From Pseudothermotoga sp. (GTDB lineage: Bacteria; Thermotogota; Thermotogae; Thermotogales; DSM-5069): 64,000 nt of DNA. Shown one piece after another: positions 38,184 through 55,219 of this stretch. The stretch covers positions 1 to 64,000 of the forward strand of contig JANXCS010000005.1 of the NCBI GenBank assembly GCA_025060105.1. The letters are read 5' to 3'. Under the pieces are notes generated by a model. The model worked only from the letters and a program-made list of their open reading frames with translations, ran no database searches and was not told where the DNA came from. Each line of letters begins with the position of its first letter. Within the stretch, counting starts at the first letter, position 1. A program made the position numbers and the translations under genes.

Positions 38184-38193
38184 TTGAATTCCC

Positions 38194-40596
38194 TCACTTC
38201 GAAACAAATTTCATTATCAGCTCTTCGATATCGTCAATTGTTACTTGAAAAAGATTTTCTTCGACTTTTTGTACGGGTAAATCTGGCTCAACGATCAAAG
38301 AGTATATGGGAGGGCAAAACACGTAAATAGTACAGTTAGACACATTGGAAAATTTGATGGTTGCAGAGTGCTTATCACTCAGGAATTCAGCCTGGACTGG
38401 TCTCCAAGAACAGGATCCAAATCTCAAGTTCGTATACTCAAAAGAGTAGTCAACACCGCTCAATCTATAATCGATCTTTTTGTTCTCTTCGAGAATGAAC
38501 TCGAACGCCAATTTGTTTTCACTCTTTGAGTGTTTCTCGTCGGTCAGGATGGAACCAAAGAGGGGTTCTTTTAATTGGAAGATAATCCTGACCGGTTTTT
38601 TAGATAGATTTTTGAATAGATATGAACAAACATCGCCTCGTCTTTGGAACTCTATGCTTACTCTGGCTTCTCCGACTCTCACGTTGTCAATGACATACCT
38701 TTTCCAATGAATTGGTATCCTTGGGCTGAACTTCAAGACGAGTTGTGTTGCATCTGTTTCTAATCCGAAGAGTCCTTCCAAGATAGCCCACAAAATCGGT
38801 CCTACAGAGAAAAGTTGGTGTGGAACTGCCGTCACTACAGGAACAAAAATATCCCCTGAAAAAAGCTCAGATAAATGTGTCGAACCTTCTTCTACAAGGG
38901 CCCTGACAGCACTTTTGATGATCTGCCATCCGACGAGATCGTACCCCGTTCGGTAGCAAGACTGTGCAACAAAACCATTTATGAAGTACCAAATACTCCC
39001 CAGATTGTAATTTATTGGATCGTAATGTTCACAAACCTCTATCGATCTTGCACCCCATCTCGTCATGACAGTGCTACTGGATATTCTCTCGATGAAAGCT
39101 TCCGACCTCTTCGGATCGAGAACAGAAAGAGAGATAGCAAACGATGGCCACGGTGTCAAATGACCAAAGAGTTTTCCATCGCTGTTTATTGACAGATAAT
39201 AAGCTTTTGATTCTTCTCGCCAGAATGTTCTTTCAATTGAATCTCTAACTCTTTGAATCTTTTTTTCAAGTTTTTCACAAATCTCTGCTTCCTCTATTCT
39301 GGCGAAAACATCTCTCAAACGCTCAATCGCAGCCAAATAAACGGCGTTTGTGTACAACTCATATTTTGGTTTTCTAAACTCGCTTATCTCCAACGCACCA
39401 AGACCTGCCTTGAGGTTCACAACCAAACCTGTTTCATCACACATCGTATCGTAGAAGTCGCACGCTTTCATTATCTTGTCCTTCATGGATCTGAGAAAAT
39501 CTGTATCACCAGATCGGGTCACGTAATGCGCACAAGCTAGAAGGAACCAAGCAGTGGTATCAGCATGGAGAAAAGCAAAGCCCTTGTAATTGTTGAACCA
39601 ATCTATAAGACCATGAGATTGAGAAATCTCATGAGGAATTCGTCCTTCTGGATTTTGATAGGAAGCATAGAATTCAAGGTTTCTTCTGACAGTTTCTATA
39701 TCACCGTAATCACACATGGCTAACGAGTTTATGGATGCATCTGCCGCGAAGAACCAAGCAAAACCAGGCCTTGTGGATTTACCAGAAGGTCCTATCCCAG
39801 CGACCAACGCTTCCCCTAAGTTTGGATTCTTGATCAAGCCTTTCAGCAGAGACAGTTTACCCCAGCTGAAAAATTCATTCAGATCTTGATCTGGTGTTTC
39901 TAATCTCACCGTTTTCTCCAGGTAAGATCGATAATACTTTCTCGCTTTTTCTATCTCTTTGTGAACGCTTTTTTCTGAGACGAGTAGGTCCTGAAGAGTT
40001 TTTTTGCTCATGTTCCCACCTATTACGCTTACAGGGAACTCCTTTTTTCCTGCTTCGATCCGAACCTTGAAACTATACATTGTTTCAGCGAAGGCATGAT
40101 CACCCTCTTTTGAAAACTTCTCAGCTCCAGGCGCGCGAATCATGGCTGAAAACGAATCGGTTGGCTCTGATATTACAAATCCTCCAAGCTGATCTGACCA
40201 GTGACAATATTGACCACCTATCGCACCTGGCCACATGAGGTTCAATTCCGGTTTGAAATGAAAAATCAACTCCAGATCGACTGAAGAAGTGATACTGTAT
40301 AAAACGAAACAGCCTGGAAAATCTATGGGGGAGAAAATGGTTTCATCCACACAGAACAAAGGGTGCGCATAGTGGATGGTTACAGACTCGGGTTTGAAGA
40401 AAATATCAATGGCAAATCCTTCTAAAGAAACAGTTTCAAGCACTTTTGGCAACCAAACGCTTGTCCTGAAATTACTGAGCAACTTCACCGGCCAGCTCCA
40501 AAATTCCAAACCTTGGCCGAACCACCCCATGACACATGATCTCTTTCCAACGCTCTCTAAGTAAAGTCTTGACTTAACTCTTAGAAATCTTGTCAC
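38194..40596 (-). CDS. (alpha/alpha)6-barrel glycosidase, glycogen-debranching-like fold
   Basis: 800 residues. An N-terminal beta domain (about 1-220) precedes an (alpha/alpha)6 barrel (about 240-620) and a C-terminal beta region. It is clearly related to the 1009-residue neighbour: NLGEALVAGIGPS, STRPGFAWFFAADASINSLA and VRRNLEFYASYQNPEGRIPHE match the corresponding blocks there, and YELYTNAVYLAAIERL matches its AELYLNAIWLA segment. The candidate acid position differs (GLGALEISE here, GHGWIEGG there), so the two probably act on different linkages. GTG 40596 follows AAGGA and overlaps the GntR gene by 23 nt. No signal peptide. Confidence 0.75.
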   Translation of the reverse strand: MTRFLRVKSRLYLESVGKRSCVMGWFGQGLEFWSWPVKLLSNFRTSVWLPKVLETVSLEGFAIDIFFKPESVTIHYAHPLFCVDETIFSPIDFPGCFVLYSITSSVDLELIFHFKPELNLMWPGAIGGQYCHWSDQLGGFVISEPTDSFSAMIRAPGAEKFSKEGDHAFAETMYSFKVRIEAGKKEFPVSVIGGNMSKKTLQDLLVSEKSVHKEIEKARKYYRSYLEKTVRLETPDQDLNEFFSWGKLSLLKGLIKNPNLGEALVAGIGPSGKSTRPGFAWFFAADASINSLAMCDYGDIETVRRNLEFYASYQNPEGRIPHEISQSHGLIDWFNNYKGFAFLHADTTAWFLLACAHYVTRSGDTDFLRSMKDKIMKACDFYDTMCDETGLVVNLKAGLGALEISEFRKPKYELYTNAVYLAAIERLRDVFARIEEAEICEKLEKKIQRVRDSIERTFWREESKAYYLSINSDGKLFGHLTPWPSFAISLSVLDPKRSEAFIERISSSTVMTRWGARSIEVCEHYDPINYNLGSIWYFINGFVAQSCYRTGYDLVGWQIIKSAVRALVEEGSTHLSELFSGDIFVPVVTAVPHQLFSVGPILWAILEGLFGLETDATQLVLKFSPRIPIHWKRYVIDNVRVGEARVSIEFQRRGDVCSYLFKNLSKKPVRIIFQLKEPLFGSILTDEKHSKSENKLAFEFILEENKKIDYRLSGVDYSFEYTNLRFGSCSWRPVQAEFLSDKHSATIKFSNVSNCTIYVFCPPIYSLIVEPDLPVQKVEENLFQVTIDDIEELIMKFVSK

Positions 40597-41305
40597 AATC
40601 CTTCACTCCTTGTTTTTGGACGTAGTCCTTCACGTCTTCAATATCGAGATCTATGATTTTCTCATAAACTTCCAAAGCCTTTGTTAGGTCTCTCCTTACG
40701 ATGCTGTCGCACAACTCCTTGTGATAGGGAAGACCACGATCACCAAAATCTTGTAAACCAAGGGGTGAGTGCCAGAGTATGCCAAGTAACGAAAAGAGAT
40801 TTTCGAAAACCATCTGAAGAATCCTGTTGTTGGCTATTTCGAATATCTTCCTGTGAAACTTTTCGTCCATTTCACTGAGTTTTTCATGACTCTCGATTGA
40901 TCTTTCCAAATCCGCGAAGGCTGTTTTTAGTTCTTCGAGCTGTTCCTTGCTAGCATTTTGAATGGCAAGTTTTATAGCTCCACTTTCTAAGCACCTTCGA
41001 ACTTCCAATAGTTCCAAAATGTCTTTAGGGTTATCAGAACATACTTTGAGAGGTATGTTGAAAGAAATACTGAGACCATTTTTCCTCAACACATAAGTTC
41101 CACTACCGTGAATAGTTTTCGTAACACCTTCCAATTCTAAGACCCTGAGAGCTTCTCTCACGATGGTTCGACTAACTTGAAACATACTCGCTAATTGATA
41201 TTCCGCAGGCAATTTTTCCATATCTTGTTCTAATATCAACTTTTTGATGGCTTCTGCAACGAGGAGAGATTTTCTTTCCTTCACGGTGTTGTTGATCTTT
41301 ACCAC
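40574..41305 (-). CDS. GntR-family regulator, FadR/FCD subfamily
   Basis: 243 residues. A winged helix-turn-helix occupies residues 12-75 (LPAEYQLASMFQVSRTIVREALRVLE), followed by a helical FCD ligand domain with likely metal-binding Asp/His residues (EVRRCLESGAIKLA, MDEKFHRKIFEIANN, YHKELCDSIVRRD). FadR-type members bind palindromes and respond to sugar acids or related effectors. It is encoded between a transporter and the glycosidases, and two matching palindromes lie upstream of the two binding-protein genes of the locus (45672-45702 and 51366-51390), so it likely controls both operons, its own included. Start GTG 41305. Confidence 0.92.
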   Translation of the reverse strand: MVKINNTVKERKSLLVAEAIKKLILEQDMEKLPAEYQLASMFQVSRTIVREALRVLELEGVTKTIHGSGTYVLRKNGLSISFNIPLKVCSDNPKDILELLEVRRCLESGAIKLAIQNASKEQLEELKTAFADLERSIESHEKLSEMDEKFHRKIFEIANNRILQMVFENLFSLLGILWHSPLGLQDFGDRGLPYHKELCDSIVRRDLTKALEVYEKIIDLDIEDVKDYVQKQGVKDCDKISKS

Positions 41306-41312
41306 CTCTCTT

Positions 41313-42155
41313 TCATTCTTTCATACCAGTCAATGCTATACCTTCGACAAAGTATTTTTGCGCTATGAGAAACATGACAATTATTGGTAGCATCACAACA
41401 ACTGCTGCTGCCATTTGGTATGGCCAGTTCACTTCGAACATGGTCTTGAAATACGCGATTCCAACCTCAACTGTGCGCATCTTCTCTGTCCTAGTCACTA
41501 ACAAAGGCCACATGAAAGCTTTCCATGTGCTCATGAAGGCAAATATTCCGAGTGTGGCAAGTGCTGGTTTAGAGAGAGGAAGAACAATCCTCCAAAATAT
41601 CATGAGCTCACTAGCCCCATCTATCCTTGCAGCATCCTCTAAGTTCTTAGGTAAAGTGAGGAAGAACTGTCTCAAAAGAAATGTGCCCCAAACACTGAAA
41701 AAAGAAGGCACCGTTAAAGCCCAGTAGGTGTCGATCCAGTTCAGTGATTTCACGATCAGAAATGATGGAATTAGAGTTACAATTCCTGGTATCATCATCG
41801 TTGAAAGAAAAATCCAGAAGACAATATCTCGCCCTGGAAAACTTAACCGCGCAAAAGCGTATGCTGCCATAGAACAAAACAACAATTGTATGGGTACCAC
41901 TATCATAACCATAATAGCAGAATTTAGAAAGTATCTACCAAAGGGAACCAACGTCAGAGCGTTTTTGTAGTTTGACCATTTCGGTTGGTCTGGTATAAAC
42001 TTCGGTGGGAAATGGAAGACTTCCATTTTATCCATTAGAGATGTTGAAACCATCCATAGAAAAGGTATCAACATCGTTAGAGCTACAAACAATAATACAG
42101 CATAAGTTATAACACTACTGATCATTTTTTTTATCTTACGATTTTTATCATTCAT
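41313..42155 (-). CDS. Sugar ABC importer permease, MalG type (system 1)
   Basis: 280 residues with six membrane segments. The EAA loop reads DAARIDGASELMIFWRIVLP near residue 185, and the ending VEGIALTGMKE is typical of CUT1-family MalG subunits. It pairs with the fused MalF-type protein encoded 4 nt upstream. It is 280 residues long, exactly like its counterpart in system 2, and the two are close paralogues. ATG 42155 follows GAGGAGTGAG. No ATPase gene lies in this operon. Confidence 0.95.
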   Translation of the reverse strand: MNDKNRKIKKMISSVITYAVLLFVALTMLIPFLWMVSTSLMDKMEVFHFPPKFIPDQPKWSNYKNALTLVPFGRYFLNSAIMVMIVVPIQLLFCSMAAYAFARLSFPGRDIVFWIFLSTMMIPGIVTLIPSFLIVKSLNWIDTYWALTVPSFFSVWGTFLLRQFFLTLPKNLEDAARIDGASELMIFWRIVLPLSKPALATLGIFAFMSTWKAFMWPLLVTRTEKMRTVEVGIAYFKTMFEVNWPYQMAAAVVVMLPIIVMFLIAQKYFVEGIALTGMKE

Positions 42156-42159
42156 AATC

Positions 42160-44298
42160 TCACTCCTCGTAGAAAGTTTTTCCCATCAATCTGAATTGAA
42201 TAAACGAAGCTATGAAGATTAGCAAGAACAGAAACCAAGATTGTGCGCTGGCATATCCCATCCTAAAACCCTTCCAAGCCGTGTTGTATATATGATAGAC
42301 AAATACGTTCGTGCTTCCCGCAGGCCCTCCCTCAGTCATGACATAAACCGGAGTGAAAATCTGGAATGAGCCTATAACAGACGTTATGAGAAGAAAAACA
42401 GTCGTCGGTTTAAGCATGGGTAAGGTTATATAAACGAATTTATGCCAACTGTTTGCTCCATCAAGATCTGCCACCTCGTACAAATAACTTGGTATACCTT
42501 TCAAACCAGCCAGATATATGACCATTTGATAGCCAAGATTCATCCAAATTGTCATGATCATAATGGACATCATCGCGGTTTTCGGGTCCGATAGCCACCT
42601 TTGAGGAGGGATTCTGAAGATACCAAGAAGGTAGTTCAGTAATCCAAATTCTGGGTTGTAAATCCATTGCCAGACAATTGATATAGCCACGAAGGAAGAT
42701 ATAGAAGGAAGAAAATAAAGCAATCTGAGCAAGTTTATACCCTTTATCCTCTTGTTCATCAAAAGTGCTACTCCCAATGAGAGGGCCATACCTATCGGCA
42801 CATTCAGCGTATAGATTGCTGTGTTTTTCAGTGAGCGCATGATATCCTTATCTTTCAAAACGTTCATGAAATTTTCAAAACCAACGAACGGTTTCAATGG
42901 ATCTACCATGGACCATTCATGAAAACTGAGATACAGTGAAAATGCTATGGGAATCAAGAGCCACATCATGAACATAGAAATTCCAGGTAGCAGGAATGAA
43001 TAACCTTTCATTGTGTTTCTAAGCACCAATTTATTATCAATGTTTTTTACAAGAAAATCCAAGATGAAGAGCATGAAAGCAAGACAACTCAGAACAACGA
43101 AGAAAACAAGAACCAGATTCTTTCCTTGAGTATTGACTCTTAGAGGCAAATATGTTAACTTTGTTTCTCCAAATTTAAACGTGAAGGTCTTCAAACCACG
43201 TACGGAATGAAAAATTTCATCTGGAGCCATCTTCGAAAGTCTGTCCATGTCCTTTTTCAAATTGGCCATGATCGTAGTTGAAGAAGCTATCAACTTCTCA
43301 GAGCCATCGAAAATAGCCAAGTTGAAAATTTTGGTGAGATCTTCCAAATCTCCCGTCTTTTGAGTGCATTGTTTCATGTAGGTACGTAACGACATAGTAA
43401 AATCCCTGACGGCTCTTTCCGAAAATTTATCCAAATTTCCTTTCAAGAAGAAGGTGAGAAGCAAGAAAACAGTCAAAACTATTAAGGAACAAATTCTAGA
43501 TGAGAACAATGTTTTTTTCGCTAATAAGATAACGAAAGAACAAAGAATCACCAAACCTACCCCAATAGCTAACAAAAAATATATGACCTGTGCAATCTCG
43601 GCTTTGACGTTTACCATTTCTGTACCAACAACGATAACACCTTCAGCATGCCAATTCAAATAGTCAAGAAAAGGTGTTGCAGCTATTATATAGTGCTTTT
43701 TTCCAGATCTCACTGAGGCAGAGACGGGGTTCCAAGCCGATTGGGCAGCCTTCAGTGTTTTTTCAGGAAAAGGTAAGTTTATGTTAGTGCCGATATTCAC
43801 CATTTCTTTCGTAATATTAGAAAGGTAAGCGAAGCTGTGATTCACGTGGTTTAATTGATCGGACACATTTTCTTCGTAAACAAAAAAGGAATCAAAGTTC
43901 ATGTCTTTAGCTTTTACAACGCGCGCGATTAACTTAGAGTTCTCCACAATAATCATTGGAACAGGATCACCTGTCATCAAATTGAACATGAGATCTTCTG
44001 TAAAACTGATGGTTTTACCGCCTGAACTCAATGGCTTGCCAGCTTCATTAACCACATACATGAACGAATCTTTCTCATCCATAACAGTATCGACGATCTC
44101 ACCGTGAAAGAACTTTTCAGCGTTTTTTGAGACTTTTTCTCTTATAGCTTGCAGTGTGGACCGTATAACTTTGGAGATTTCCTCAAGATTTTCAGCTTTC
44201 ACAACTTGAACGGTTTTGAAGAAGAAATATCCTAAAATAAATGAACAAACAACAATCAAAGTACACAAAAATAGAAGAAAGATGATTTTCACATTCAT
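42160..44298 (-). CDS. MalF-type sugar ABC permease with an N-terminal double sensor-like extension (system 1)
   Basis: 712 residues, against about 290-320 for a usual MalF-type subunit. Membrane segments lie near 5-27, 238-260, 269-286 and 394-418, before a normal six-helix permease core that begins near 432 (GYSFLLPGISMFMMWLLIP) and has the EAA loop ADLDGANSWHKFVYITLP. Residues 28-235 and 287-393 should be extracytoplasmic. The first opens with a long helix and then SFMYVVNEAGKPLSSGG, and the second has NLAIFDGSEKLIASS; both look like Cache/PAS-type sensor folds. In MalF the extra P2 loop comes after the first core helix, so this arrangement is different. ATG 44298 follows GGGAGGAG. The partner genes are the binding protein upstream and MalG downstream. 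Confidence 0.88.
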   Translation of the reverse strand: MNVKIIFLLFLCTLIVVCSFILGYFFFKTVQVVKAENLEEISKVIRSTLQAIREKVSKNAEKFFHGEIVDTVMDEKDSFMYVVNEAGKPLSSGGKTISFTEDLMFNLMTGDPVPMIIVENSKLIARVVKAKDMNFDSFFVYEENVSDQLNHVNHSFAYLSNITKEMVNIGTNINLPFPEKTLKAAQSAWNPVSASVRSGKKHYIIAATPFLDYLNWHAEGVIVVGTEMVNVKAEIAQVIYFLLAIGVGLVILCSFVILLAKKTLFSSRICSLIVLTVFLLLTFFLKGNLDKFSERAVRDFTMSLRTYMKQCTQKTGDLEDLTKIFNLAIFDGSEKLIASSTTIMANLKKDMDRLSKMAPDEIFHSVRGLKTFTFKFGETKLTYLPLRVNTQGKNLVLVFFVVLSCLAFMLFILDFLVKNIDNKLVLRNTMKGYSFLLPGISMFMMWLLIPIAFSLYLSFHEWSMVDPLKPFVGFENFMNVLKDKDIMRSLKNTAIYTLNVPIGMALSLGVALLMNKRIKGINLLRLLYFLPSISSFVAISIVWQWIYNPEFGLLNYLLGIFRIPPQRWLSDPKTAMMSIMIMTIWMNLGYQMVIYLAGLKGIPSYLYEVADLDGANSWHKFVYITLPMLKPTTVFLLITSVIGSFQIFTPVYVMTEGGPAGSTNVFVYHIYNTAWKGFRMGYASAQSWFLFLLIFIASFIQFRLMGKTFYEE

Positions 44299-44340
44299 TG
44301 CTTTTTCTCCTCCCAAAAAATACTTCATATTTCAGGAAAA

Positions 44341-44362
44341 GGTGGTGGCATAAGCCACCACC
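44341..44362 (-). terminator. Intercistronic hairpin after binding-protein gene 1
   Basis: Perfect 9-bp stem GGTGGTGGC / GCCACCACC (44341-44349 with 44354-44362), 4-nt loop; on the minus strand TTTTCC follows. It lies 13 nt after the binding-protein stop and before the fused permease. Probably a partial terminator or stabiliser. Confidence 0.75.
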
Positions 44363-44375
44363 TTGTTGATATCCG

Positions 44376-45647
44376 CTAGCGCCCGAAAACCTTTGCTTCG
44401 ATTTCTTTCACAGCCCAATCTAATGCTTCTTTGACTGGTGTATTCAAGGATAAAATTTTATCTATAGCTTGCGCAAAGATGTCTTCAGCTTTGTACCAAT
44501 CAACTACCCTGCAACCGATCGGCAATCTCGCAGTTGGTACTATTTCGACAAATTTTTTCTCAACTCCCCATTTGTCTTGAGCCACGAGCAATTCGTTGGT
44601 TGGGATGTGTCCTGACAATTCGATTCTAGCCTCAAGTACTTCGCGTTTCTGACCTTCTGCTCCAGACAACCAAGCGACAAATTGCAAAGCTTCCCTCGGA
44701 TGTTTTGTCGTCGACATTACACTCCAAGCGGTAGCATATATAACAGTTTGACTCGATTTTGCATAAGGTCCCTTTGGTAATCTGACGACACCAATTTCCA
44801 GAGTTCCTTCTTCTATGTACTTTCTCATTCCAAAGAGCGACCAATGTCCACTGACATAGAAACCTATTCTGTTAGTGTAAAGCATGTTACCAAGACCACC
44901 GAAAGCAGAAATCACGTCTGGTTCAGGCGCCACTTTGTATTTTTTTATCAGATCAACGAAAAACTGCACAGCTTCAATTGTTTGCGGACTGTTGAGGTAA
45001 CCCGATACCGTCTTGTAATCCGGTGAGATGATCTCTCCACCATAAGACCAAATCATCGGACACAACTGGTAGAAAAGTCTGCCAACATGTGCTCCATATT
45101 GATCGATTTTACCATCGCCATCGAAATCCTTTGTCATTGCTTGTGCCATCTTGAGAAAGTCGTTCCATGTCCAGTCATCGCTTGGTTCAGGCAACCCTGC
45201 CTGCTTCAAGAGCTTCTTGTTGTAATACACAACCATTGGGGTAAAACCTTTCGGGAGACCAAAGAGCTTTCCATCTGGTGAGGTGAATATCTCGAGCACA
45301 TTGGGATAATACTCTTCAATGTTGACTCCTAAAATCCTCAAATACGGTCTGATGTTGAGTGGGACACCACGTTCAGTGAATGTAGGCATGTAAGGCGCAT
45401 CGAGAAGGAAAACATCTGGAGGATTGCCAGCGGCGATGGATGCAAGTAGAGCTTGCGTGTAATTCTCTGGGTAAACCTCTGGAACGATTTTTATATTCGG
45501 ATACTTCGCTTGGAAAGCCGCCATTTTTGCATTCGCATGTTTGATGTCCTCCTCGCCGCCACCCCAACCAGTCCATCTGAGTTCAATGACTTGCGCGATC
45601 ATGAGAGCTGCGACCAAAATCATAGCCACCATGAAGAACTTACGCAT
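44376..45647 (-). CDS. Sugar ABC importer binding protein, CUT1 class (system 1)
   Basis: 423 residues with a signal peptide (RKFFMVAMILVAALMIAQ) and no lipobox Cys. It is a family 1 extracellular solute-binding protein: IELRWTGWGGGEE at the mature start, NPPDVFLLDAPYMPTFTERG, and GLPKGFTPMVVYYNKKLLKQ are typical of oligosaccharide binders. I use ATG 45647 behind GGGAGGTG; the frame upstream runs through the operator. It is the first gene of the operon that includes the fused permease, MalG, GntR and five glycosidase-type genes. The ligand is likely the oligosaccharide those enzymes degrade. Confidence 0.93.
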   Translation of the reverse strand: MRKFFMVAMILVAALMIAQVIELRWTGWGGGEEDIKHANAKMAAFQAKYPNIKIVPEVYPENYTQALLASIAAGNPPDVFLLDAPYMPTFTERGVPLNIRPYLRILGVNIEEYYPNVLEIFTSPDGKLFGLPKGFTPMVVYYNKKLLKQAGLPEPSDDWTWNDFLKMAQAMTKDFDGDGKIDQYGAHVGRLFYQLCPMIWSYGGEIISPDYKTVSGYLNSPQTIEAVQFFVDLIKKYKVAPEPDVISAFGGLGNMLYTNRIGFYVSGHWSLFGMRKYIEEGTLEIGVVRLPKGPYAKSSQTVIYATAWSVMSTTKHPREALQFVAWLSGAEGQKREVLEARIELSGHIPTNELLVAQDKWGVEKKFVEIVPTARLPIGCRVVDWYKAEDIFAQAIDKILSLNTPVKEALDWAVKEIEAKVFGR

Positions 45648-45671
45648 AGAAACACCTCCCCATATTTTGAA

Positions 45672-45702
45672 GCATACTTGTCTAATAAGTAGACAAGTAT
45701 GC
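45672..45702. promoter_or_regulatory. Operator of glycan operon 1, perfect 13-bp inverted repeat
   Basis: GCATACTTGTCTA (45672-45684), 5-bp centre, TAGACAAGTATGC (45690-45702), 25 bp upstream of the binding-protein start. A TTGTAA -35-like hexamer (minus strand, 45711-45706) directly abuts it, so a bound repressor would cover the promoter. The same sequence recurs at 51366-51390. The TTGTCTA/TAGACAA half-sites fit a GntR/FadR-type dimer. Confidence 0.85.
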
Positions 45703-45788
45703 AACTTACAATATTTATTGTACTCAGCAAAACCCCTCTCTTTCACAAGTAATGTAACATTCCTGTAAAATTTTCCGAGAAATTCGAA

Positions 45789-46814
45789 TCATCTTGGCCA
45801 CCTTTTTTCAAGCTCTAAAAGAGCAGGGAAAGTTGTGTGAGGTTCAATCTGGTACCAATAAGCCACAGAAGTGATATCATCTGTCAAAGGTTGAAAAGTT
45901 CCATCAGGCCACCATCCGAGAGTCTGAACTGTAACTCTCAGGGTTTTTCTGAAAAAGATTGGATCAAATATGTGCCATCTGTACATGACATGCTTTGGAA
46001 TTTGTCCTTCCTGCTTTAACCAAAGAGGATATCCCAAAAAAGGCGTTGAATAGGTTTTTCCAAAACCCCAAGCTCCTCCGAAGTAATCCTCGATGCCTGT
46101 GTAGCATATGCTCGGATTTTCCTCACCATCTATGAAGAACTTAACTTCACCTTCTCCCCACCAACCGTTTGAAAGTTGTTCCCATGCTATAACGGTTCCA
46201 ATGTACTTTCCTCTACCTTCGACACCATCTAAAATCACGTGTTGTGGATTATCTCTAGTGGTCATACTTCTACGCCACTGCGAGTGAAAGTAGGTCACGT
46301 CATTCCCAAGTTTCTTTTTAACAAAAGATATTTGGTAGAAGAAATATGGTATGTCATTCTCGCTCTGATTTTCGATTGTCATCCTCGCTCTTTTTTTGAA
46401 AGGCATGGGCCAGTACGAATTGAATCCACCAGAAGGATTCACAGAGATGGGTAAAGAGTTGACCTCAAATCTCAATCCGAAGCAATTAACAAAGAAATCT
46501 CCCAGCGGTACTTCTACAGATGGTACATTTTCATCATCCCAGTACATCCTCAAAATACAACTTCTGTAAGCTTTTTGATCTACTGTCATCCAAATGTAAG
46601 TTATGACACCAGGACCTTCAATGTCAGCCAGCAAAGTTTCCTGTTTAACCCTTAGGGAGATACATGGCCTGACTTTCCATCCTCTTCCAAGCCTTCTCGC
46701 AGGATTCTCAGGACCAGGAATCTCAAGGGCACCTCTGTTCCTGCCTCCGGTGGGATTCTCAGCTGATACGGAAAATGTCTCCGCATCGGCAAGCTTGTAA
46801 AACTCTTCAAGCAC
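45789..46814 (-). CDS. DUF2961 protein, GH172-type glycoside hydrolase
   Basis: 341 residues of the DUF2961 family, now classed as GH172, whose studied members act on alpha-D-fructofuranosides or D-arabinofuranosides. The N-terminal NPTGGRNRGALEIPGPENPA is unusual for its Gly/Pro richness but typical of the family. The core blocks DIEGPGVITYIWMT, YWDDENVPSVEVPLGDFF and GEGEVKFFIDGEENPSICY then IEDYFGGAWGF carry the acidic residues (Glu221/Glu223 and Glu242) likely to be catalytic. No signal peptide. GTG 46814 follows GAGAGGTGA, 6 nt after the MalG-type gene. It is the last gene of operon 2; the operator of operon 1 begins about 85 nt later. Confidence 0.88.
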   Translation of the reverse strand: MLEEFYKLADAETFSVSAENPTGGRNRGALEIPGPENPARRLGRGWKVRPCISLRVKQETLLADIEGPGVITYIWMTVDQKAYRSCILRMYWDDENVPSVEVPLGDFFVNCFGLRFEVNSLPISVNPSGGFNSYWPMPFKKRARMTIENQSENDIPYFFYQISFVKKKLGNDVTYFHSQWRRSMTTRDNPQHVILDGVEGRGKYIGTVIAWEQLSNGWWGEGEVKFFIDGEENPSICYTGIEDYFGGAWGFGKTYSTPFLGYPLWLKQEGQIPKHVMYRWHIFDPIFFRKTLRVTVQTLGWWPDGTFQPLTDDITSVAYWYQIEPHTTFPALLELEKRWPR

Positions 46815-46820
46815 TGAACA

Positions 46821-47663
46821 TCACCTCTCATAACCCGAAGATAGTTTTATGCCCTGAAGGAGCCACTTTTGGGCAAGAAAGTAGATCACTATGAGAGGTA
46901 TAGAAGAAAGAGTAGCTGCAGCGAGTTGAATCGGATAATCAATTGTGTATTGAGTGGTGAACATAGCTATGCCAATTTCTATCATTCTCATCTCCTTGCT
47001 CCTTGTAACTATGAGGGGCCAGAGAAAAGATTTCCATGTTCCAAGGAACGTGAAAGTTGCTACTGTGGCAAGAACAGGTTTACACAGAGGGAGCACAATC
47101 CTCCAAAATATAGTGAACTCTGAAGCTCCATCTATCCTTGCAGCATCTTCCAAACTGTTTGGGAGTGTGAGCATGTACTGTCTCATCAAAAACATTCCCC
47201 ATATGTTACCAAGCGAGGGAACTATTAAAGCTAAGTACGTGTCTATCCACCCGAGGTTGCGAAGGATTATGAACCCAGGTATTAAAGTTACAACTCCTGG
47301 TAGCATCATGAAGGCTATGAATATTCTGAAGATGAGATCCCTACCGGGAAAATAAAGCCTTGAGAGTGCATATCCTCCCATGGATACCACTACGAGTTGC
47401 CCCAGAACGACGGAAACGGCAACAAATACTGTATTGAAAATGTATCTGCCCCATGGTTGAGACTTCCACATCTCTATATAATTTTGAAATCTAGGATTGG
47501 AAGGAAACAGTTTCGGTGGAAAACTATATATCTCAAACTGCGCCATGAGAGATGAAGAAACCATGACTATGTATGGCAACAACGTTGAGATGGCTAGAAT
47601 CATTAGGATGAACATAATGAAAAGTTTCAGCAGGATTCTTACAGATTTCCTTTTTTCCCTCAT
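46821..47663 (-). CDS. Sugar ABC importer permease, MalG type (system 2)
   Basis: 280 residues, six membrane segments, EAA loop DAARIDGASEFTIFWRIVLP. It is a close paralogue of the system 1 MalG subunit: PGRDLIFRIFIAFMMLPGVV and GWIDTYLALIVPS match block by block. I use ATG 47663, which gives the same length as its paralogue and follows GGTGGTGTGA; the frame extends to 47687 without a better site. It forms the channel with the fused MalF-type protein encoded 26 nt upstream. Confidence 0.93.
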   Translation of the reverse strand: MREKRKSVRILLKLFIMFILMILAISTLLPYIVMVSSSLMAQFEIYSFPPKLFPSNPRFQNYIEMWKSQPWGRYIFNTVFVAVSVVLGQLVVVSMGGYALSRLYFPGRDLIFRIFIAFMMLPGVVTLIPGFIILRNLGWIDTYLALIVPSLGNIWGMFLMRQYMLTLPNSLEDAARIDGASEFTIFWRIVLPLCKPVLATVATFTFLGTWKSFLWPLIVTRSKEMRMIEIGIAMFTTQYTIDYPIQLAAATLSSIPLIVIYFLAQKWLLQGIKLSSGYER

Positions 47664-47689
47664 ATCACACCACCACGCACACAACAAAA

Positions 47690-49912
47690 TTAGAAATATT
47701 GCTTCCAGCTCTCTTTCCCAAAGAGTTTGAACTCAACATAAGTTAGTACAAGTAGAACTAAAAAAAGCATCCAAGATTGTGCTGCAGCATATCCCATCTT
47801 TAGTTCTATCCAAGCAGATTCCCATATGTGATAGAAGACAACATCTGTGCTCCTCAGAGGTCCACCTTGAGTCAAGACGTAAATCGGTGTGAATACTTGG
47901 AATGAACCAATCACACTGGTTACGAGCACGAAAACAGTCGTTGGTTTTAAAAGTGGAATAGTTATGAAGCGAAACTTTTGGAAAGCATTGGCTCCATCTA
48001 TGCTGGCTGCTTCATAGAAAGCTTGAGGTATGCTTTGAAGCCCTGCAAGAAAAATTATCATCTGACTTCCCAAAGATTGCCAGATAGTCATTAACATTAT
48101 GGCTATTAAAGCCGTGTTTGGGGAAGTTAGCCAAGGAATCTTCGGAATACCGAAGAATCCCAACACATAGTTCAATATACCGAATTCCTTATTCAGTATC
48201 CACCTCCAAACTATTGTGGTCGAAACACCCGCAGTTACAGCTGGTAGATAGTATACAGTGCGCAGAAGTGCCATACTTTTGGTTTGTCGGTTAACCGCGA
48301 TGGCGAGAAAAAGTGAAAGTAGCATACTGATAGGAACTTGGAGTGAGAATATTACTGTGTTTTTCATGGCATTCCAAAAGAGCTTATCTTGAAATAACTC
48401 TTTGAAGTTTTCAAACCCAACGAAAGGTTTCGCTGGATCTATCACGTTCCATCTGTGAAACGCCAAGTAAAATGAAAAAGCCACAGGACCAGCTGCCCAC
48501 CATAGGAGATGAATGAGCGCGGGAGCCAAGAAAATGTATCCGACCAACGTGGCTTTGAGGAATCGAGGATGATCGGTATTCTTTATCGAGAAACCGAGTA
48601 TCAAAACCAAAATGAAAGATACCATGATCATGACTATCCCCATGAATTTGATGTTCACCACATTGTTCACAAGCGGTGTTTTCTCTTTCAATAGAAACAA
48701 AACCTCACTCTCTTGTTTCAAACCCAGGTAAGTGTAACGGACCTTGTTTACATCCAACTCACCTATTTCAACTGTATCGATATTCCTCAGCTTCATCCAG
48801 TTTGCTAGCGTGCTGAGCACATTCTTTTTCAGCGTGGATGAAACGATATTTCTATTCTCAATCAACAGGATTTGAACGTTTAACATTTTCTTCATCTCAT
48901 CAAATTGAGTTGTTTCTAGCCAAATTTTTCCAAACCTCTTTAGAACCTTGGACATTGCTTCTGTACATTCTATGTACTCAGTTTCCAAAACCTTGGGCAT
49001 TTGAAAGACGAAAACGAACAAGATCGAAAACAACAAAGGTAAGGAATAAAAAAATAAAACACTCATAACTTTTAACTTTTTCCTCACAGTACTCAAAATC
49101 CCAAATATCAGGATTACGAAAGAAGCTGAAAATAGAAAAATATCGATGATCAGAAATTTCAGAAAAGCTTTTTGCACCTCTCGAAACTCAATAGAATTGA
49201 TGAGAAACCCTTTGATTCCCCATTCTTCAAAATCAAAAAATGGTACAGCGATCACTAATTCTCCATCTTTTGTTATCTCCGTCTCAGGCCTTTGACCTCC
49301 TGCAGCCTTTTTCAAAAGATCAGCACTCACTTGGAAACCTTCTCCAAAAACTTTTCCATCCTTCGATATGAAAAACACCTTTCTATGAATCAGATGGCCA
49401 ATCTTGGCAAAATAATCCGCAGGGAGTGTTTTGCCCACAAGGACAATTAGGTCATCACCATTGATGGTTTTGACCACCATTGCGGTTCTGATCTGTACAG
49501 CATCATCCAGAAAATAGAGGTCCGAGAGAAAAGCATAACTCTCTTCATAAAGCAATGCTTGGATCAAAGCGTCGTTGTAGAAATCTTCACTCGGTACGTT
49601 ACCAAACTCTGAAACTGAGTTTCCATCAATATCCATCCATATGGCAAATGAACAATCTTCACACATTTTGCGACCCAAACTTTCAAGATTGGAAATGGAA
49701 ATGTCCTCGTTCTTTAAAAAATCAGAGATTCTTTTTCCAAAACTATGCAGATCACTCTTTAGATAAAAAAGGCTAATCCTAGCAAGATCACTCTCTACAT
49801 CTCTTTTGTAATGAACAAATTTCGATCTGAAGTAAAAAGCTGAAAAGACGAAAATCATCACAATGAAGGATGTCGTGACCAAAATTAAGTAAGCTTTTAC
49901 TCTTTCGCTCAA
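47690..49912 (-). CDS. MalF-type sugar ABC permease with an N-terminal double sensor-like extension (system 2)
   Basis: 740 residues with the same plan as the system 1 protein. Membrane segments lie near 7-28, 252-272, 283-304 and 422-443, then a normal six-helix core from about 455 (VGYIFLAPALIHLLWWAAG) with the EAA loop EAASIDGANAFQKFRFITIP. Extracytoplasmic parts are about 29-250 and 305-420. The first shows two PAS-like strand-turn-strand units (SFAIWMDIDGNSVSEFG and KVFFISKDGKVFGEG), as in a double Cache domain, and a Cys pair (CEDC, 84-87). The second has NVQILLIENRNIVSST. The core is strongly conserved between the two copies, the extensions only weakly. TTG 49912 follows GGAGGG. Confidence 0.88.
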   Translation of the reverse strand: MSERVKAYLILVTTSFIVMIFVFSAFYFRSKFVHYKRDVESDLARISLFYLKSDLHSFGKRISDFLKNEDISISNLESLGRKMCEDCSFAIWMDIDGNSVSEFGNVPSEDFYNDALIQALLYEESYAFLSDLYFLDDAVQIRTAMVVKTINGDDLIVLVGKTLPADYFAKIGHLIHRKVFFISKDGKVFGEGFQVSADLLKKAAGGQRPETEITKDGELVIAVPFFDFEEWGIKGFLINSIEFREVQKAFLKFLIIDIFLFSASFVILIFGILSTVRKKLKVMSVLFFYSLPLLFSILFVFVFQMPKVLETEYIECTEAMSKVLKRFGKIWLETTQFDEMKKMLNVQILLIENRNIVSSTLKKNVLSTLANWMKLRNIDTVEIGELDVNKVRYTYLGLKQESEVLFLLKEKTPLVNNVVNIKFMGIVMIMVSFILVLILGFSIKNTDHPRFLKATLVGYIFLAPALIHLLWWAAGPVAFSFYLAFHRWNVIDPAKPFVGFENFKELFQDKLFWNAMKNTVIFSLQVPISMLLSLFLAIAVNRQTKSMALLRTVYYLPAVTAGVSTTIVWRWILNKEFGILNYVLGFFGIPKIPWLTSPNTALIAIMLMTIWQSLGSQMIIFLAGLQSIPQAFYEAASIDGANAFQKFRFITIPLLKPTTVFVLVTSVIGSFQVFTPIYVLTQGGPLRSTDVVFYHIWESAWIELKMGYAAAQSWMLFLVLLVLTYVEFKLFGKESWKQYF

Positions 49913-49936
49913 CTTTTAACCCTCCAACCATTTAAA

Positions 49937-49960
49937 AAGGAGGGGAAAACTCCCCTCCTT
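49937..49960 (-). terminator. Intercistronic hairpin after binding-protein gene 2
   Basis: 9-bp stem AAGGAGGGG / CCCCTCCTT (49937-49945 with 49952-49960), 6-nt loop; on the minus strand it is followed by TTTAAATGG, and the inner T's add a U-run. It touches the last base of the binding-protein stop codon. Same position as the hairpin in system 1. Confidence 0.75.
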
Positions 49961-51249
49961 CATTGCCATTCGCCTTTCTTTATAGCTTTGTCTATCTCCT
50001 CTGCAGCCCAGTCGAAGGCTTCCTTGACTGACACTCCTTTGATCAAGATACGATCAACTGCTTCAGCCCATGTTCTTTCAAACAAGGGCCTGTAGTACTT
50101 AGTTTGGGATCCAACAGGAACTCTAGCGAAACTCAACATCTTTATGAAAACTGCATCCACCTTGTTTAAAGTTGCCTGTTCTTCTGCGATCCTCTTGTTG
50201 GCAGATATGGCAAGCCCACCTTTTAAACATCTTTCTCTCTGGGCGTACTCACTAGACAACCAAGCTGCCAACTCTACAGCTAACCTCTTGTCTGCCACAT
50301 TTGCTGGAACAGCCCAACCAGATGCGTAAGTAACTGTCACGTTCTTGAATCCTGGCGCATGCGGTATCGGCGCGATTCCCACATCGATGGGTGCTCCCTG
50401 CTCTATCTGTCTTTTCACGCTCAACCAGAACCATCTTCCCGTGATCACCATACCTATTCGACCTGTAAAGAAGAGAGAAGACGCTCCACCGAGAGCAGCT
50501 GCTTCTTCTGGCGAGGGTGCGTATTTTTTCTTGAAAAGATCTACGAAGAAACTGTAGGTTTTAACGTTGGTTTCGCTGTTGAGATATCCTGTAGTATAGG
50601 TGAAATCCGGCGAGAACACTTCACCACCACCAGCCCAGAGGAGTGGCACGGCGACCCCAACCCAGCTTGGGAAAGAGAATGCCCAAACATCGACCTTTCC
50701 GTCTCCGTCTGTGTCCTTAGTCAATTTCGCAGCAGTTTCCTCAAACTCTTTCCAAGTCCAACCACTTTCTGGAGGATAAGGCACTCCAAACCTATCAAAG
50801 AGCTTCTTGTTGTAGAACACACCCACAGGGCTCGTATCCTTTGGTAAAGCGTATATGGATCTACCGGCTCTGAATATATCAACTAGCACTTCGAAATACT
50901 CGTTCAAGTTCGTTCCAGAAACGCGTTCCTCTGCGAGTCTCGACAGGTATGGAGCCAAGTTCAGCAAAAGTTTTTCTTCAGAATACCTTGGAACCATCTC
51001 GGCATCTAAGAGAAACACATCGGGAGGAGTTCCTGCTGCTATGTCTGTCAGGATCTTCTGATAGTAGTTCTGTGGTATCGGCTCGTACACCACTTCAATG
51101 TCTGGATGAGTCCTCATGAATTCCGCTAAAATCTTCTGATCCAATTCCGCCTCAAGTGCACCAGCCCAACTGCAAACTCTAAGTTTTGTTTTGCCGAATC
51201 CCACTGCGAAGATCAGAGCAACGAGGAAAACGATCAACAACCTCCTCAT
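49960..51249 (-). CDS. Sugar ABC importer binding protein, CUT1 class (system 2)
   Basis: 429 residues with a signal peptide (RRLLIVFLVALIFAVGFG). Family 1 solute-binding protein, a paralogue of the system 1 protein: TPPDVFLLDAEMVPRYSEE, ALPKDTSPVGVFYNKKLFD and TKDTDGDGKVDVWAF match its blocks. The many aromatic residues in the ligand cleft (GYLNSETNV, GRWFWLSV) are usual for sugar binders. ATG 51249 follows GAGGAGGTGCAGG. First gene of operon 2, which continues with the fused permease, MalG and GH172. No ATPase is encoded; a shared one, perhaps that of 57417-58505 or one elsewhere, must serve. Confidence 0.93.
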   Translation of the reverse strand: MRRLLIVFLVALIFAVGFGKTKLRVCSWAGALEAELDQKILAEFMRTHPDIEVVYEPIPQNYYQKILTDIAAGTPPDVFLLDAEMVPRYSEEKLLLNLAPYLSRLAEERVSGTNLNEYFEVLVDIFRAGRSIYALPKDTSPVGVFYNKKLFDRFGVPYPPESGWTWKEFEETAAKLTKDTDGDGKVDVWAFSFPSWVGVAVPLLWAGGGEVFSPDFTYTTGYLNSETNVKTYSFFVDLFKKKYAPSPEEAAALGGASSLFFTGRIGMVITGRWFWLSVKRQIEQGAPIDVGIAPIPHAPGFKNVTVTYASGWAVPANVADKRLAVELAAWLSSEYAQRERCLKGGLAISANKRIAEEQATLNKVDAVFIKMLSFARVPVGSQTKYYRPLFERTWAEAVDRILIKGVSVKEAFDWAAEEIDKAIKKGEWQ

Positions 51250-51603: not shown

Positions 51604-53481
51604 TCACACATCAACTAAAGCTCCGAGGAACTGACTTTTGTACAATTGTGCATAAAAGCCTCCTTTTTGGAGTAACTCTTTGTGTGTACCTTTCTCTATT
51701 ATCTTTCCTTCGTTCATTACTAGTATTAGATCGGCACTCTTGATTGTTGAAAGCCTGTGCGCTATGATGAAGCAAGTTCTACCTTTCATCAATTCGTTCA
51801 TGGCTTTTTGAATGTAGACTTCCGTCAGTGTGTCAACGTTACTGGTAGCCTCGTCCAAGATCAAAATGTCCGGATTAGCTAAGAAAGCTCGTGCAATCGT
51901 TATCAGTTGTTTCTCACCGTAGGATATATTCGTGGCTTCCTCATTTATCATGGTGTCATAACCATCTGGAAGAGCCATGATGAAGTGATGCGCTTGTGCC
52001 ATCTTTGCCGCAAGTTCTATCTCTTCCTGACTGGCGTTCTCTTTCCCGTAGGCGATGTTCTCCCTGATGGTACCGTTGAACAACCATGTATCTTGCAAAA
52101 CCATACCAAAACATTTTCTCAAATGGCTCTTATGGATATCCCTGATGTCTATTCCATCCAGTTTTATGCTACCTTTCTGTATCTCGTAGAACCTCATTAG
52201 AAGGTTCACCAGCGTGGTCTTCCCAGCGCCAGTTGGACCAACTATAGCTACTCTCTGACCACTCTTTATTTCTATGTTCAAATCTTCTATCAAAGGTTTA
52301 TCTGGGACATAGCTAAAATAAACTCTTTCGAATTTGATCTCGCCCTTGGCTTTCTCAATTTTGAGAGCGGAAGGGCTCTCCGGTTTTTCCTCTTCTTCAT
52401 CGAGTATCTCAAAGACTCTTTCAGCTGCAGCTATTGTTGATTGAATCAAATTCACTATGTTGGATATCTGCACGATCGGCTGGGTGAATTGCTGAGAATA
52501 CTGTATGAAAGCTTGAACATCACCTATTGTTATAGTTCTTCTGGTGACCAAGATACCCCCAACTACAGAAACTATCACATAACCGAGGTTTCCTATGAAC
52601 CGCATCAGGGGCATGATCATACCCGAAAGAAATTGGGCTTTGTAACTCGCATCACAGAGTTGCTCGTTGATCTTTTCGAATTTCTCGATCGCATCCTTCT
52701 CTCTGCAGTAAGCTTTGACGACGATATGGCCTGCGTAAATTTCTTCAACGTGACCACTGAGTTCTCCGATTTTTTTCTGCTGGGTTGAAAAATGCTTCTG
52801 AGAGAACTTCGCGATGAAAACTGTCGTCAAGATGCTCAAAGGTAACGTGAGCATCGTAACACCAGTGAGCAATGGGCTTATGGTGAGCATCATGATCGTG
52901 ACACCGATTATGGAAATCACACCAGAAACGAACTGAACAAAACCTTGCTGAAGCGTCCCACTTATCAGGTCAATATCGTTTATCACACGACTCAATATCT
53001 CTCCGTGAGTCCGTGAATCATAAAACTTCAGAGGAAGTCTTGCGAGTTTCTCAGAAATTTCCTTCCTCATCTTCATAACGATTTTCTGAGAAACTCCTGC
53101 CAAGATGTATTGCTGCACGTAATGTAAAAGTGCGCTCAAAACATACAGAATACTCACTTGAATCAATATTTTCGCGACATATGAGAAGTTTATCCTTGCA
53201 CCAGGCAACCTCAACATCTTCATCATTACACCACGAAAGATTTCCGTTGTTGCTCGGCCAAGAATTTTTGGAGCTATTATTGTGAGTACAGTTGCGGTGA
53301 TTGTCAAGGCGAGAACGATCGCTATTGGAAAAAGGTAAGGCCTGAGGTAAGTTATCAACCTTTTCAATGTTCCTTTGAAATCTTTAGCCTTCTCCGCTGG
53401 CCCTGTAAAAGCTGGGCCACCAGGTCTTGGGCCTCTAGCTGGAAATGGTCCGAGTCGAGCGGTTTTCCTTTCATCTGTCAC
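51604..53481 (-). CDS. Heterodimeric ABC exporter subunit, TM288-like
   Basis: About 625 residues: a Pro/Gly-rich N-terminal tail (PFPARGPRPGGPAF), six membrane helices (about 45-345) and an ABC domain. Walker A is GPTGAGKTTL, Walker B ILILDEATSNVD has the catalytic Glu, and the switch His is in FIIAHRLSTI. Its signature motif is NISYGEKQ instead of LSGGQ. Together with the partner, this gives one complete and one degenerate ATP site, as in T. maritima TM287/TM288, a multidrug-type exporter. I use GTG 53481 behind GGAGGTG; it overlaps the partner stop by 11 nt. The pair lies under a MarR regulator, which suggests drug or toxic compound efflux. Confidence 0.93.
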   Translation of the reverse strand: MTDERKTARLGPFPARGPRPGGPAFTGPAEKAKDFKGTLKRLITYLRPYLFPIAIVLALTITATVLTIIAPKILGRATTEIFRGVMMKMLRLPGARINFSYVAKILIQVSILYVLSALLHYVQQYILAGVSQKIVMKMRKEISEKLARLPLKFYDSRTHGEILSRVINDIDLISGTLQQGFVQFVSGVISIIGVTIMMLTISPLLTGVTMLTLPLSILTTVFIAKFSQKHFSTQQKKIGELSGHVEEIYAGHIVVKAYCREKDAIEKFEKINEQLCDASYKAQFLSGMIMPLMRFIGNLGYVIVSVVGGILVTRRTITIGDVQAFIQYSQQFTQPIVQISNIVNLIQSTIAAAERVFEILDEEEEKPESPSALKIEKAKGEIKFERVYFSYVPDKPLIEDLNIEIKSGQRVAIVGPTGAGKTTLVNLLMRFYEIQKGSIKLDGIDIRDIHKSHLRKCFGMVLQDTWLFNGTIRENIAYGKENASQEEIELAAKMAQAHHFIMALPDGYDTMINEEATNISYGEKQLITIARAFLANPDILILDEATSNVDTLTEVYIQKAMNELMKGRTCFIIAHRLSTIKSADLILVMNEGKIIEKGTHKELLQKGGFYAQLYKSQFLGALVDV

Positions 53482-55219
53482 TGAATTCACCTCCAACTAC
53501 TGCTTCTTCCTCCGAAATCTGCGAAAGCACTATGTCACGATATACTTGACAAGTTTGCATGAGCTGACTGTGTGTGCCGATACCCTCAACCCTACCTTCT
53601 TTCATGACCACGATTTGATCTGCATGCATTATTGTGGCAACCCTTTGAGCGACAACTATGACGGTGGCATCCTTCGTTTCTTTAAAAAGTCTTGCACGAA
53701 TTCTCGCATCCGTTCTGAAATCTAAGGCAGAGAAAGTGTCATCAAAAAGATAAATTTTTGGTCTTCCAACGATTGCTCGTGCTATCGATATTCTTTGTTT
53801 TTGTCCTCCAGAAAGGTTTGTTCCACCCTGGGCTACAACGCTGTTCAAGCCATCTGGCATTTTTTTAGCAAACTCATTCACTTGAGCAATTTCTGCCGCA
53901 TTGAAAATGTCTTCGTTCGTGAGCTCGTCCCGACCGAAACGAATATTTTCTGCTATAGTTCCTGAGAATATGATGGGTTTCTGAGGAGCATAACCTATCA
54001 TCTTTCTGAGTTTTCCGAGGGGAATCTTCTTCACATCGACCCCGTCGATTGTGATGGCTCCCTCAGTTGCATCGTAGAATCTCATGATCAAATTGAGTAT
54101 AGTTGTCTTACCAGAACCTGTGCCACCGATTATAGCGGTCATCTGACCTGGTCTAGCCGTGAAAGAAACATTCTGAAGGGCTGGCTCTTTCGCACCAGGA
54201 TAGTAAAAGGTGACGTTCTTGAATTCAACGACACCTTCACCTGATGGTTCTTCAGTATCCTCAGATTCCACAATGGAAGGGAACGCCTGTAGAACTTCCA
54301 TAACTCTCTGTGCAGAAACAGAAGCACGTGGCAAGAATACAAAAATCATCGAAATCATGATGAAGGAAAAGAGAATCTGCATCACATATTGCATGACTGC
54401 GATCATTGAACCAACTTGAAGTTGACCAAGATCTATCTGCTTCGCACCGAACCATATCAAAGCTATGATCGTGAAATTCATCACGATGGTCATTATTGGA
54501 AAAACGATCGATCCAATTCTGTTCACTTTGAGAGCTGTCTGAGTCAAATCCACATTGGCCTGTTCGAATCTATTTTTTTCATACTCTTCTTTGTTGAACG
54601 CTCTTATGACTCGAATGCCGGTTATCCTTTCCCTCAAAACCAAGTTGAGTTTATCGATTTTCTTCTGCATACTCTTGAAAAGAGGCATAACCTTTGCGAA
54701 AATCAAATACATAGCCAATGCAGCTGCAGGAACGGACACCAGCAGTATCATCGTCAATTTCGCGTTCTTTGAAATCGCCATGAATATGCTCCCAATCGCA
54801 ACAATGGGTGCTCTTATGACCATCCTTTGAACCATCACGAGAGCTTGTTGTATTTGAGTTACGTCGTTCGTGGTTCGTGTGATCAGTGAAGCAGTACTGA
54901 ATTTATCCATCTCAGTGAGAGAAAAACTTTGAACCCTTTTGAAGAGATCTTCTCTGAGGTCTTTCCCGGCACACATCGCAGCTTTAGAAGAGGTTGCACT
55001 CATGATGATTATTGCAACAACTTGAATCAGAGAAACCAGAAGCATTTTTCCACCGGTCTTCCAAATATAATCAACATCGCCTCTGGTTATTCCTTTGTCT
55101 ATTATTTGAGACATCAAGTCGGGCAGATAGAGTGTCACGTACGAATCAACTATCACAAGTAAAACAGTTATGAAAACCAACCATAGATAAGGTCGAAGGT
55201 ATCGCAAGATCTTAAGCAT
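53471..55219 (-). CDS. Heterodimeric ABC exporter subunit, TM287-like
   Basis: About 582 residues: six membrane helices (about 15-305) and an ABC domain. Walker A is GGTGSGKTTI and the signature is NLSGGQKQR, but Walker B reads IYLFDDTFSALD with Asp in place of the catalytic Glu, and the switch residue is Gln in VVAQRVATI. These two changes define the degenerate site of the TM287 type. I use ATG 55219, behind GGGGAG, which overlaps the marR stop by 8 nt; the longer frame reads back into marR. It needs the TM288-like partner to be active. Confidence 0.93.
   Translation of the reverse strand: MLKILRYLRPYLWLVFITVLLVIVDSYVTLYLPDLMSQIIDKGITRGDVDYIWKTGGKMLLVSLIQVVAIIIMSATSSKAAMCAGKDLREDLFKRVQSFSLTEMDKFSTASLITRTTNDVTQIQQALVMVQRMVIRAPIVAIGSIFMAISKNAKLTMILLVSVPAAALAMYLIFAKVMPLFKSMQKKIDKLNLVLRERITGIRVIRAFNKEEYEKNRFEQANVDLTQTALKVNRIGSIVFPIMTIVMNFTIIALIWFGAKQIDLGQLQVGSMIAVMQYVMQILFSFIMISMIFVFLPRASVSAQRVMEVLQAFPSIVESEDTEEPSGEGVVEFKNVTFYYPGAKEPALQNVSFTARPGQMTAIIGGTGSGKTTILNLIMRFYDATEGAITIDGVDVKKIPLGKLRKMIGYAPQKPIIFSGTIAENIRFGRDELTNEDIFNAAEIAQVNEFAKKMPDGLNSVVAQGGTNLSGGQKQRISIARAIVGRPKIYLFDDTFSALDFRTDARIRARLFKETKDATVIVVAQRVATIMHADQIVVMKEGRVEGIGTHSQLMQTCQVYRDIVLSQISEEEAVVGGEFSDR

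Follow-up and report, generated by a model that had tools for sequence, protein, structure and literature searches.

MalF-type sugar permeases of Thermotogota with an N-terminal extension that carries a predicted double Cache domain

Among the extracellular sensors of prokaryotes, Cache domains are described as the largest superfamily, and the census of Upadhyay et al. (2016) found them exclusively in proteins with output signalling domains, its text mentioning neither a transporter nor a permease (PMC4822843). Among ABC permeases, MalF of the maltose importer has an extra extracytoplasmic domain, the P2 loop, which is located within the core of MalF and is accompanied by the Pfam domain TM_PBP2_N. 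In the window, the 64,000-nucleotide stretch of Pseudothermotoga DNA analysed here, two ABC permeases, referred to below as P1 and P2, also have an extra extracytoplasmic part, but theirs precedes the core as an N-terminal extension of 430-457 residues. The importer class is known and the sensor fold is known; their combination was not found described in the open-access literature on Cache domains and ABC permeases.

Layout of the permeases and their gene cluster

The two reading frames had been placed correctly in the initial annotation and lie on the minus strand (Table 1). P1 starts at the ATG at 44298, preceded by a strong GGAGGAG ribosome-binding site, and P2 at the TTG at 49912, preceded by GGAGG. 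The Pfam match to BPD_transp_1 was confined to the C-terminal core (residues 505-702 of P1 and 531-723 of P2), PF00528 scored 55.3 and 44.4 bits in the two permeases against a cut-off of 26.4, and the nearest models were UgpA, GlcT, and MalF, with UgpA matching at E values of 4e-34 and 1e-37. From their sequences, P1 and P2 are classed as MalF/UgpA-type (CUT1) ABC sugar permeases, and each is accompanied by genes for a binding protein and for a MalG-type partner. Both the binding proteins and the MalG partners are of ordinary build; the binding proteins are separate genes, and no SBP Pfam domain was found in P1 or P2.

Table 1 Coordinates of the two importer systems in the window, with residue numbers of each protein
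Feature	Position	Strand	Basis or remark
SBP2, system 2 solute-binding protein	49960..51249	-	SBP_bac_1
Hairpin and T-run between SBP2 and P2	49936..49961	-	Stable, GC-rich, z -3.63
P2, MalF-type permease with N-terminal extension of predicted dCache and second domain	47690..49912	-	740 aa, TTG start
P2 TM1, residues ~4-29, running on into long dCache stalk helix	49826..49903	-	Hydropathy, AlphaFold2
P2 predicted double Cache domain, residues ~30-243: long helix, distal and proximal alpha/beta subdomains	49184..49825	-	AlphaFold2, Foldseek, VIA
P2 TM2 and TM3 with short positive cytoplasmic turn, residues ~244-306	48995..49183	-	Hydropathy, AlphaFold2, charge
P2 predicted second extracytoplasmic domain, residues ~307-411: long helix and small alpha/beta domain	48680..48994	-	AlphaFold2
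P2 TM4, residues ~412-444, 13-residue linker to core TM1	48581..48679	-	Hydropathy, AlphaFold2
P2 MalF/UgpA-type permease core, residues ~458-740	47693..48541	-	PF00528, UgpA/GlcT models
MalG2, system 2 MalG-type permease, ordinary length	46821..47687	-	Pfam/NCBIfam models
DUF2961 (GH172-type) protein, kept beside many P2-type systems	45789..46814	-	Pfam and neighbourhoods of relatives
SBP1, system 1 solute-binding protein	44376..45746	-	SBP_bac_1
Hairpin and T-run between SBP1 and P1	44339..44364	-	Stable, GC-rich, z -4.59
P1, MalF-type permease with homologous extension	42160..44298	-	712 aa, ATG start
P1 predicted first extracytoplasmic domain, residues ~28-234, homologue of P2 dCache domain	43597..44217	-	hhalign probability 98.1, E 6.5e-14
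P1 predicted second extracytoplasmic domain, residues ~291-392	43123..43428	-	Hydropathy, hhalign, charge
P1 permease core, residues ~432-712	42163..43005	-	Pfam/NCBIfam models
MalG1, system 1 MalG-type permease, ordinary length	41313..42155	-	Pfam/NCBIfam models
GntR/FCD transcriptional regulator, after system 1	40574..41305	-	Pfam

Hydropathy analysis gave four hydrophobic segments ahead of the core, in the same order and spacing in both proteins, just as had been proposed from the letters: at residues ~1-33, 231-267, 262-290, and 390-421 of P1 and at ~4-29, 248-278, 280-306, and 416-447 of P2. The extension thus runs from TM1 through a domain of 208-221 aa, TM2-TM3, a domain of ~107 aa (~102-110), and TM4 to the permease core, the soluble stretches being 208 and 106 aa long in P1 and 221 and 108 aa in P2. 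No credible Pfam or NCBIfam match to the extension was found, and in searches of both collections a signalling output domain (MCP, kinase, GGDEF, or other) was absent from P1 and P2, BPD_transp_1 being the sole domain found. Sec3_C-term, Fijivirus_P9-2, and Tetraspanin were rejected as candidates, their Pfam scores being below threshold in the whole proteins; Sec3_C-term was taken as a chance helix match because its weak pass (25.3 against a cut-off of 23.7 bits) was restricted to an isolated segment and to 1 of 10 members.

The minus-strand order is SBP2, P2, MalG2, the DUF2961 (GH172-type) protein, SBP1, P1, MalG1, the GntR/FCD regulator, an MGH1-like glycosidase, and a GH38-type mannosidase, and the genes are separated by very short gaps; both importers are clustered with the DUF2961, MGH1-like, and GH38-type proteins at 35844-51249 of the window. 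The cluster holds two full sets of binding protein and permeases, plus glycosidases, and neither set has an ATPase of its own. Enzymes that degrade D-arabinan and difructose dianhydride I synthase/hydrolase belong to the DUF2961/GH172 family (PMC10115798, PMC8605356), and the cargo is, therefore, probably a glycoside. The hairpins that follow the two binding-protein genes would probably lower permease expression relative to the binding protein, which fits a binding protein made in excess. Upstream, at 51604-55655, the translations point to what looks like a separate operon, with a MarR-like regulator and a pair of ABC exporter half-transporters.

Topology and predicted fold of the extension

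The placement of both domains outside the membrane, claimed in the initial annotation, agrees with hydropathy and with counts of positive charge. The turn between TM2 and TM3 carries a net charge of +1 to +6 in 17 of the 18 sequences described below (0 in L026), the linker from TM4 to the core ranges from 0 to +5 and is mostly positive, and the first domain ranges from -3 to -27. Since a UgpA-type core normally starts with its N terminus inside, this charge pattern predicts that both domains are extracytoplasmic, each lying between transmembrane helices.

An AlphaFold2 model of the P2 extension, built with nine homologues, reached a pLDDT of 89.6 and a pTM of 0.86. In this model, a single helix of residues 2-66 rises out of the membrane as a stalk; after it come a distal (88-161) and then a proximal (166-241) alpha/beta subdomain, and TM2. 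Residues 1-444 repeat the same secondary structure in the full-length model, in which the core has a pLDDT below 50. Foldseek returned 38 PDB chains at E<=0.001 for the extension model, nearly all of them dCache sensor domains, and the top matches of the first domain were sensor domains of chemoreceptors or kinases. VIA alignment matched it to a model of McpB (Z 12.1), Tlp3 (Z 11.8, rmsd 4.4 Å over 216 residues), KinD (Z 11.6), PctA (Z 11.0), and Mlp24 (Z 10.8), and the fold matches span residues ~22-254. The first domain of P2 is, by this model, a double Cache (dCache) domain, with a long N-terminal helix and two Cache-type alpha/beta subdomains. The extensions of P1 and P2 are homologous over 332 aligned columns at ~17% identity (hhalign probability 98.1, E 6.5e-14), and the first domain of P1 is assigned as dCache by that homology. 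The Pfam dCache models did not match the domain of P1 or P2 at E values up to 10 or any of the homologues, and a genome-wide search with PF02743 likewise gave no match in the extension, so the dCache assignment is one made by fold.

The second domain of P2 is modelled as a long helix, a helix, two strands, a short helix, and four strands. In the model it is a small membrane-flanked alpha/beta domain with a stalk helix and six strands, and judged by this secondary structure it resembles a single Cache domain; the fold search of the P2 extension was filled by matches to the first domain. Profile, PDB, and Pfam comparisons gave no sequence relatives of it, and the idea that it is an internal duplicate of the first domain was dropped, as hhalign found nothing; PDB sequence matches of the extension, mainly designed helical proteins, were set aside. 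Of the earlier suggestion that the loops are PAS/Cache-like, the part concerning the first domain is borne out by the model as dCache, while for the second domain the likeness is one of secondary structure. Rather than a double sensor-like module, the extension is best seen as a single double Cache domain to which a small second domain is added.

The alignment of the extensions revealed no conserved ligand-pocket motif. The few residues invariant from P1 to P2 (G104, D227, W231, Y395, F441, and T455 in P2 numbering) map in the model to a hairpin and the proximal subdomain of the first domain, to the second domain, and to the region of TM4, a pattern that does not suggest a shared distal pocket.

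An origin of the extension from the MalF P2 loop was rejected, as the position differs, TM_PBP2_N has no match in P1 or P2 (it was found in the MalF encoded on contig C9 of the same genome), and hhalign against the P2 region of that C9 MalF gave a probability of 0.4. The initial annotation had already called this a different build, and no relation to the MalF loop was detectable by these two comparisons. MalF structures were also absent among the fold matches of the P2 extension, which carries no weight as proof.

Distribution and divergence

When 103 Thermotogota genomes were searched with a profile of the extension, 18 homologues, full or partial, turned up in 15 of them, spread over 6 genera. 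All have the same layout and are in frame, and every complete member keeps the four transmembrane segments; this recurrence indicates that the extension is neither a chance product nor a mis-called fusion. A match in a sixteenth genome (G047/L048) proved to be an unrelated RND/MMPL-like protein. A GTDB-wide scan with two conserved junction patterns, confirmed by tblastn, gave nine loci, all in Thermotogota; these patterns cover the P2 type, and forms that resemble P1 or have diverged may occur beyond the phylum. In the plasmid collection the matches were to MalF cores only, with no record covering 80% of P2, and the two places inspected hold permeases of ordinary length. Within the genome itself, the module is found on P1 and P2 and on no other MalF-type locus, which upholds the earlier view, based on the 315-aa MalF at 59387-60334, that it is not general in the organism.

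The gene directly upstream of the extended permease encodes a binding protein in 9 of 9 GTDB loci, all of one family with 60-87% identity to SBP2, and a MalG gene lies directly downstream wherever the contig continues (the contig of L088 ends inside the permease). At three loci (L085:7934-11011, L086:4854-7967, and L087:4830-7919), a protein of ~1030 aa follows MalG instead of DUF2961; that of L085, the one searched, has no Pfam match.

In a tree of the cores only, 16 extended permeases fall on one side of a branch and 31 ordinary ones on the other, with support of 98/95, although the bootstrap is not fully settled. Since all 16 extended permeases group together, the tree indicates a single fusion event, in an ancestor belonging to Thermotogota. 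No complete member without the module was seen in their clade.

Since that origin the extension has changed quickly. In two genomes of one family with orthologous systems, SBP2, MalG2, DUF2961, and SBP1 are 82-89% identical (the binding proteins 87-89%) and the P2 core 91%, whereas the extensions are only ~56-58% identical (47-64% across extension segments), making the extension the fastest-evolving part of the operon. Against putative Mesotoga-type systems, the values are 60-66% for SBP2, about 69% for the core, and 16-20% for the extension. The dN/dS ratio, computed with dS near saturation, is about 0.18 in the extension and 0.02 in the core, indicating that the extension is constrained yet fast. 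This pace is ordinary for a sensor domain: among dCache chemoreceptors, the clearest ortholog pair from the same two genomes has 61% identity in its sensor half, close to that of the extensions. The initial annotation had taken the divergence of the extensions as expected if the two sense different ligands or dock to different binding proteins; this reading fails, because the binding proteins hardly changed while the extensions drifted, and the divergence is no evidence for a different partner.

Possible roles and comparison with known systems

The best reading, to which we give a probability of roughly 0.45, is an importer gated by an outside signal that acts on the dCache module. A small molecule or protein outside the membrane would alter the dCache domain, the change would be relayed by TM2 and TM3, then by the second domain and TM4, to core TM1, and transport would be raised or lowered there, the contact between module and core being hypothetical given a core pLDDT below 50. 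As the protein carries no signalling output domain, the permease itself is the proposed effector. Having the dCache domain joined straight to a membrane channel suggests, but does not prove, that the importer answers an outside signal by itself. For this gating we count the dCache fold, the homology of the P1 and P2 modules, the outside topology, the single origin, purifying selection, a divergence close to that of a chemoreceptor's sensor half, and the permease as sole attached effector; against it, the lack of a conserved pocket motif and a fast-evolving extension beside a 91% identical core, which also suits a loosely constrained scaffold. The stricter form, a one-component regulated importer in which a dCache receptor is wired into the ABC channel and a signal other than the cargo sets uptake without a kinase, second messenger, or transcription step, is put forward tentatively.

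We find it doubtful that the module senses nothing and instead dimerises or clusters the transporters, anchors them to the cell envelope, or makes the permease more stable. The quick, unfocused divergence and missing pocket would suit such a role, and dCache domains can dimerise through their stalk helix, but the fold belongs to a dedicated ligand-binding family, and the reading frame and all four transmembrane segments have been kept in every complete member since the single origin. A need for heat stability would hardly explain the module by itself, since the genome's other MalF-type permeases do without it. A docking platform, with the dCache domain keeping the system's own binding protein close to the translocator and sensing no free small molecule, seems unlikely. 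The periplasmic domain of LuxQ holds the binding protein LuxP, LuxQ domains (2hj9, 3c30, and 3c38) are among the fold matches, and the fixed place of one binding-protein family upstream of the extended permease would fit this role. However, ordinary MalF/MalG cores bind their binding proteins without such an extension, and a docking face should drift less than the extensions do, both in the orthologous pair and against the putative Mesotoga-type systems; with binding proteins that hardly changed, this drift counts mildly against tight docking.

It is more improbable still that the module acts on a separate membrane partner, such as a histidine kinase or chemoreceptor, with the importer as co-receptor, as BceAB is for BceS. 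dCache domains do normally feed signalling proteins (PMC4822843), but the operons showed neither a kinase nor a receptor gene, and the regulator present is a soluble GntR/FCD protein. A Cache domain with a transporter as its only attached effector makes it possible to test, in a system that is small and probably heat-stable, whether an external signal can control an ABC importer directly and without transcription. The fold assignment also suggests that dCache domains can escape current sequence models and be hidden in proteins annotated simply as sugar permeases.

The Thermotogales MalG1/MalG2 proteins (PMC2246101) come from the same phylum and are likewise enlarged sugar-importer permeases, but their hydrophilic insert of ~500 aa is in MalG, between TM1 and TM2, whereas the extension of P1 and P2 is on MalF, and for these reasons it was not taken as that insert. 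Two other loci of the same genome carry enlarged permeases. On contig C9 (L022:4595-8772), a MalE-MalF-MalG operon encodes an 821-aa MalG with a large coiled-coil-like insert, as in PMC2246101, and a MalF with TM_PBP2_N. On contig C8 (L021:5097-8604), a 759-aa MalG has a hydrophilic insert of ~430 aa after TM1 and a 420-aa MalF has extra hydrophobic segments after core TM1, neither with a credible Pfam match. The OpuA and GlnPQ importers (PMC11065425, PMC8025302) also have extra extracytoplasmic domains tied to the permease, but these are the substrate-binding domains themselves, whereas P1 and P2 appear to add a Cache domain. With the dCache sensors of the chemoreceptors and kinases McpB, Tlp3, PctA, and KinD, the predicted domain shares its fold, size, long N-terminal stalk helix, and position outside between two transmembrane segments; it differs in escaping the Pfam dCache models and in being joined to an ABC permease without MCP, kinase, or GGDEF, and so, with no output domain for signalling beside it, departs from the Cache census (PMC4822843). 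The alpha2delta subunit of voltage-gated calcium channels also contains a Cache domain and belongs to a transport complex (PMC4822843), but alpha2delta is a separate eukaryotic accessory subunit, whereas the predicted dCache domains of P1 and P2 are fused to the permease itself.
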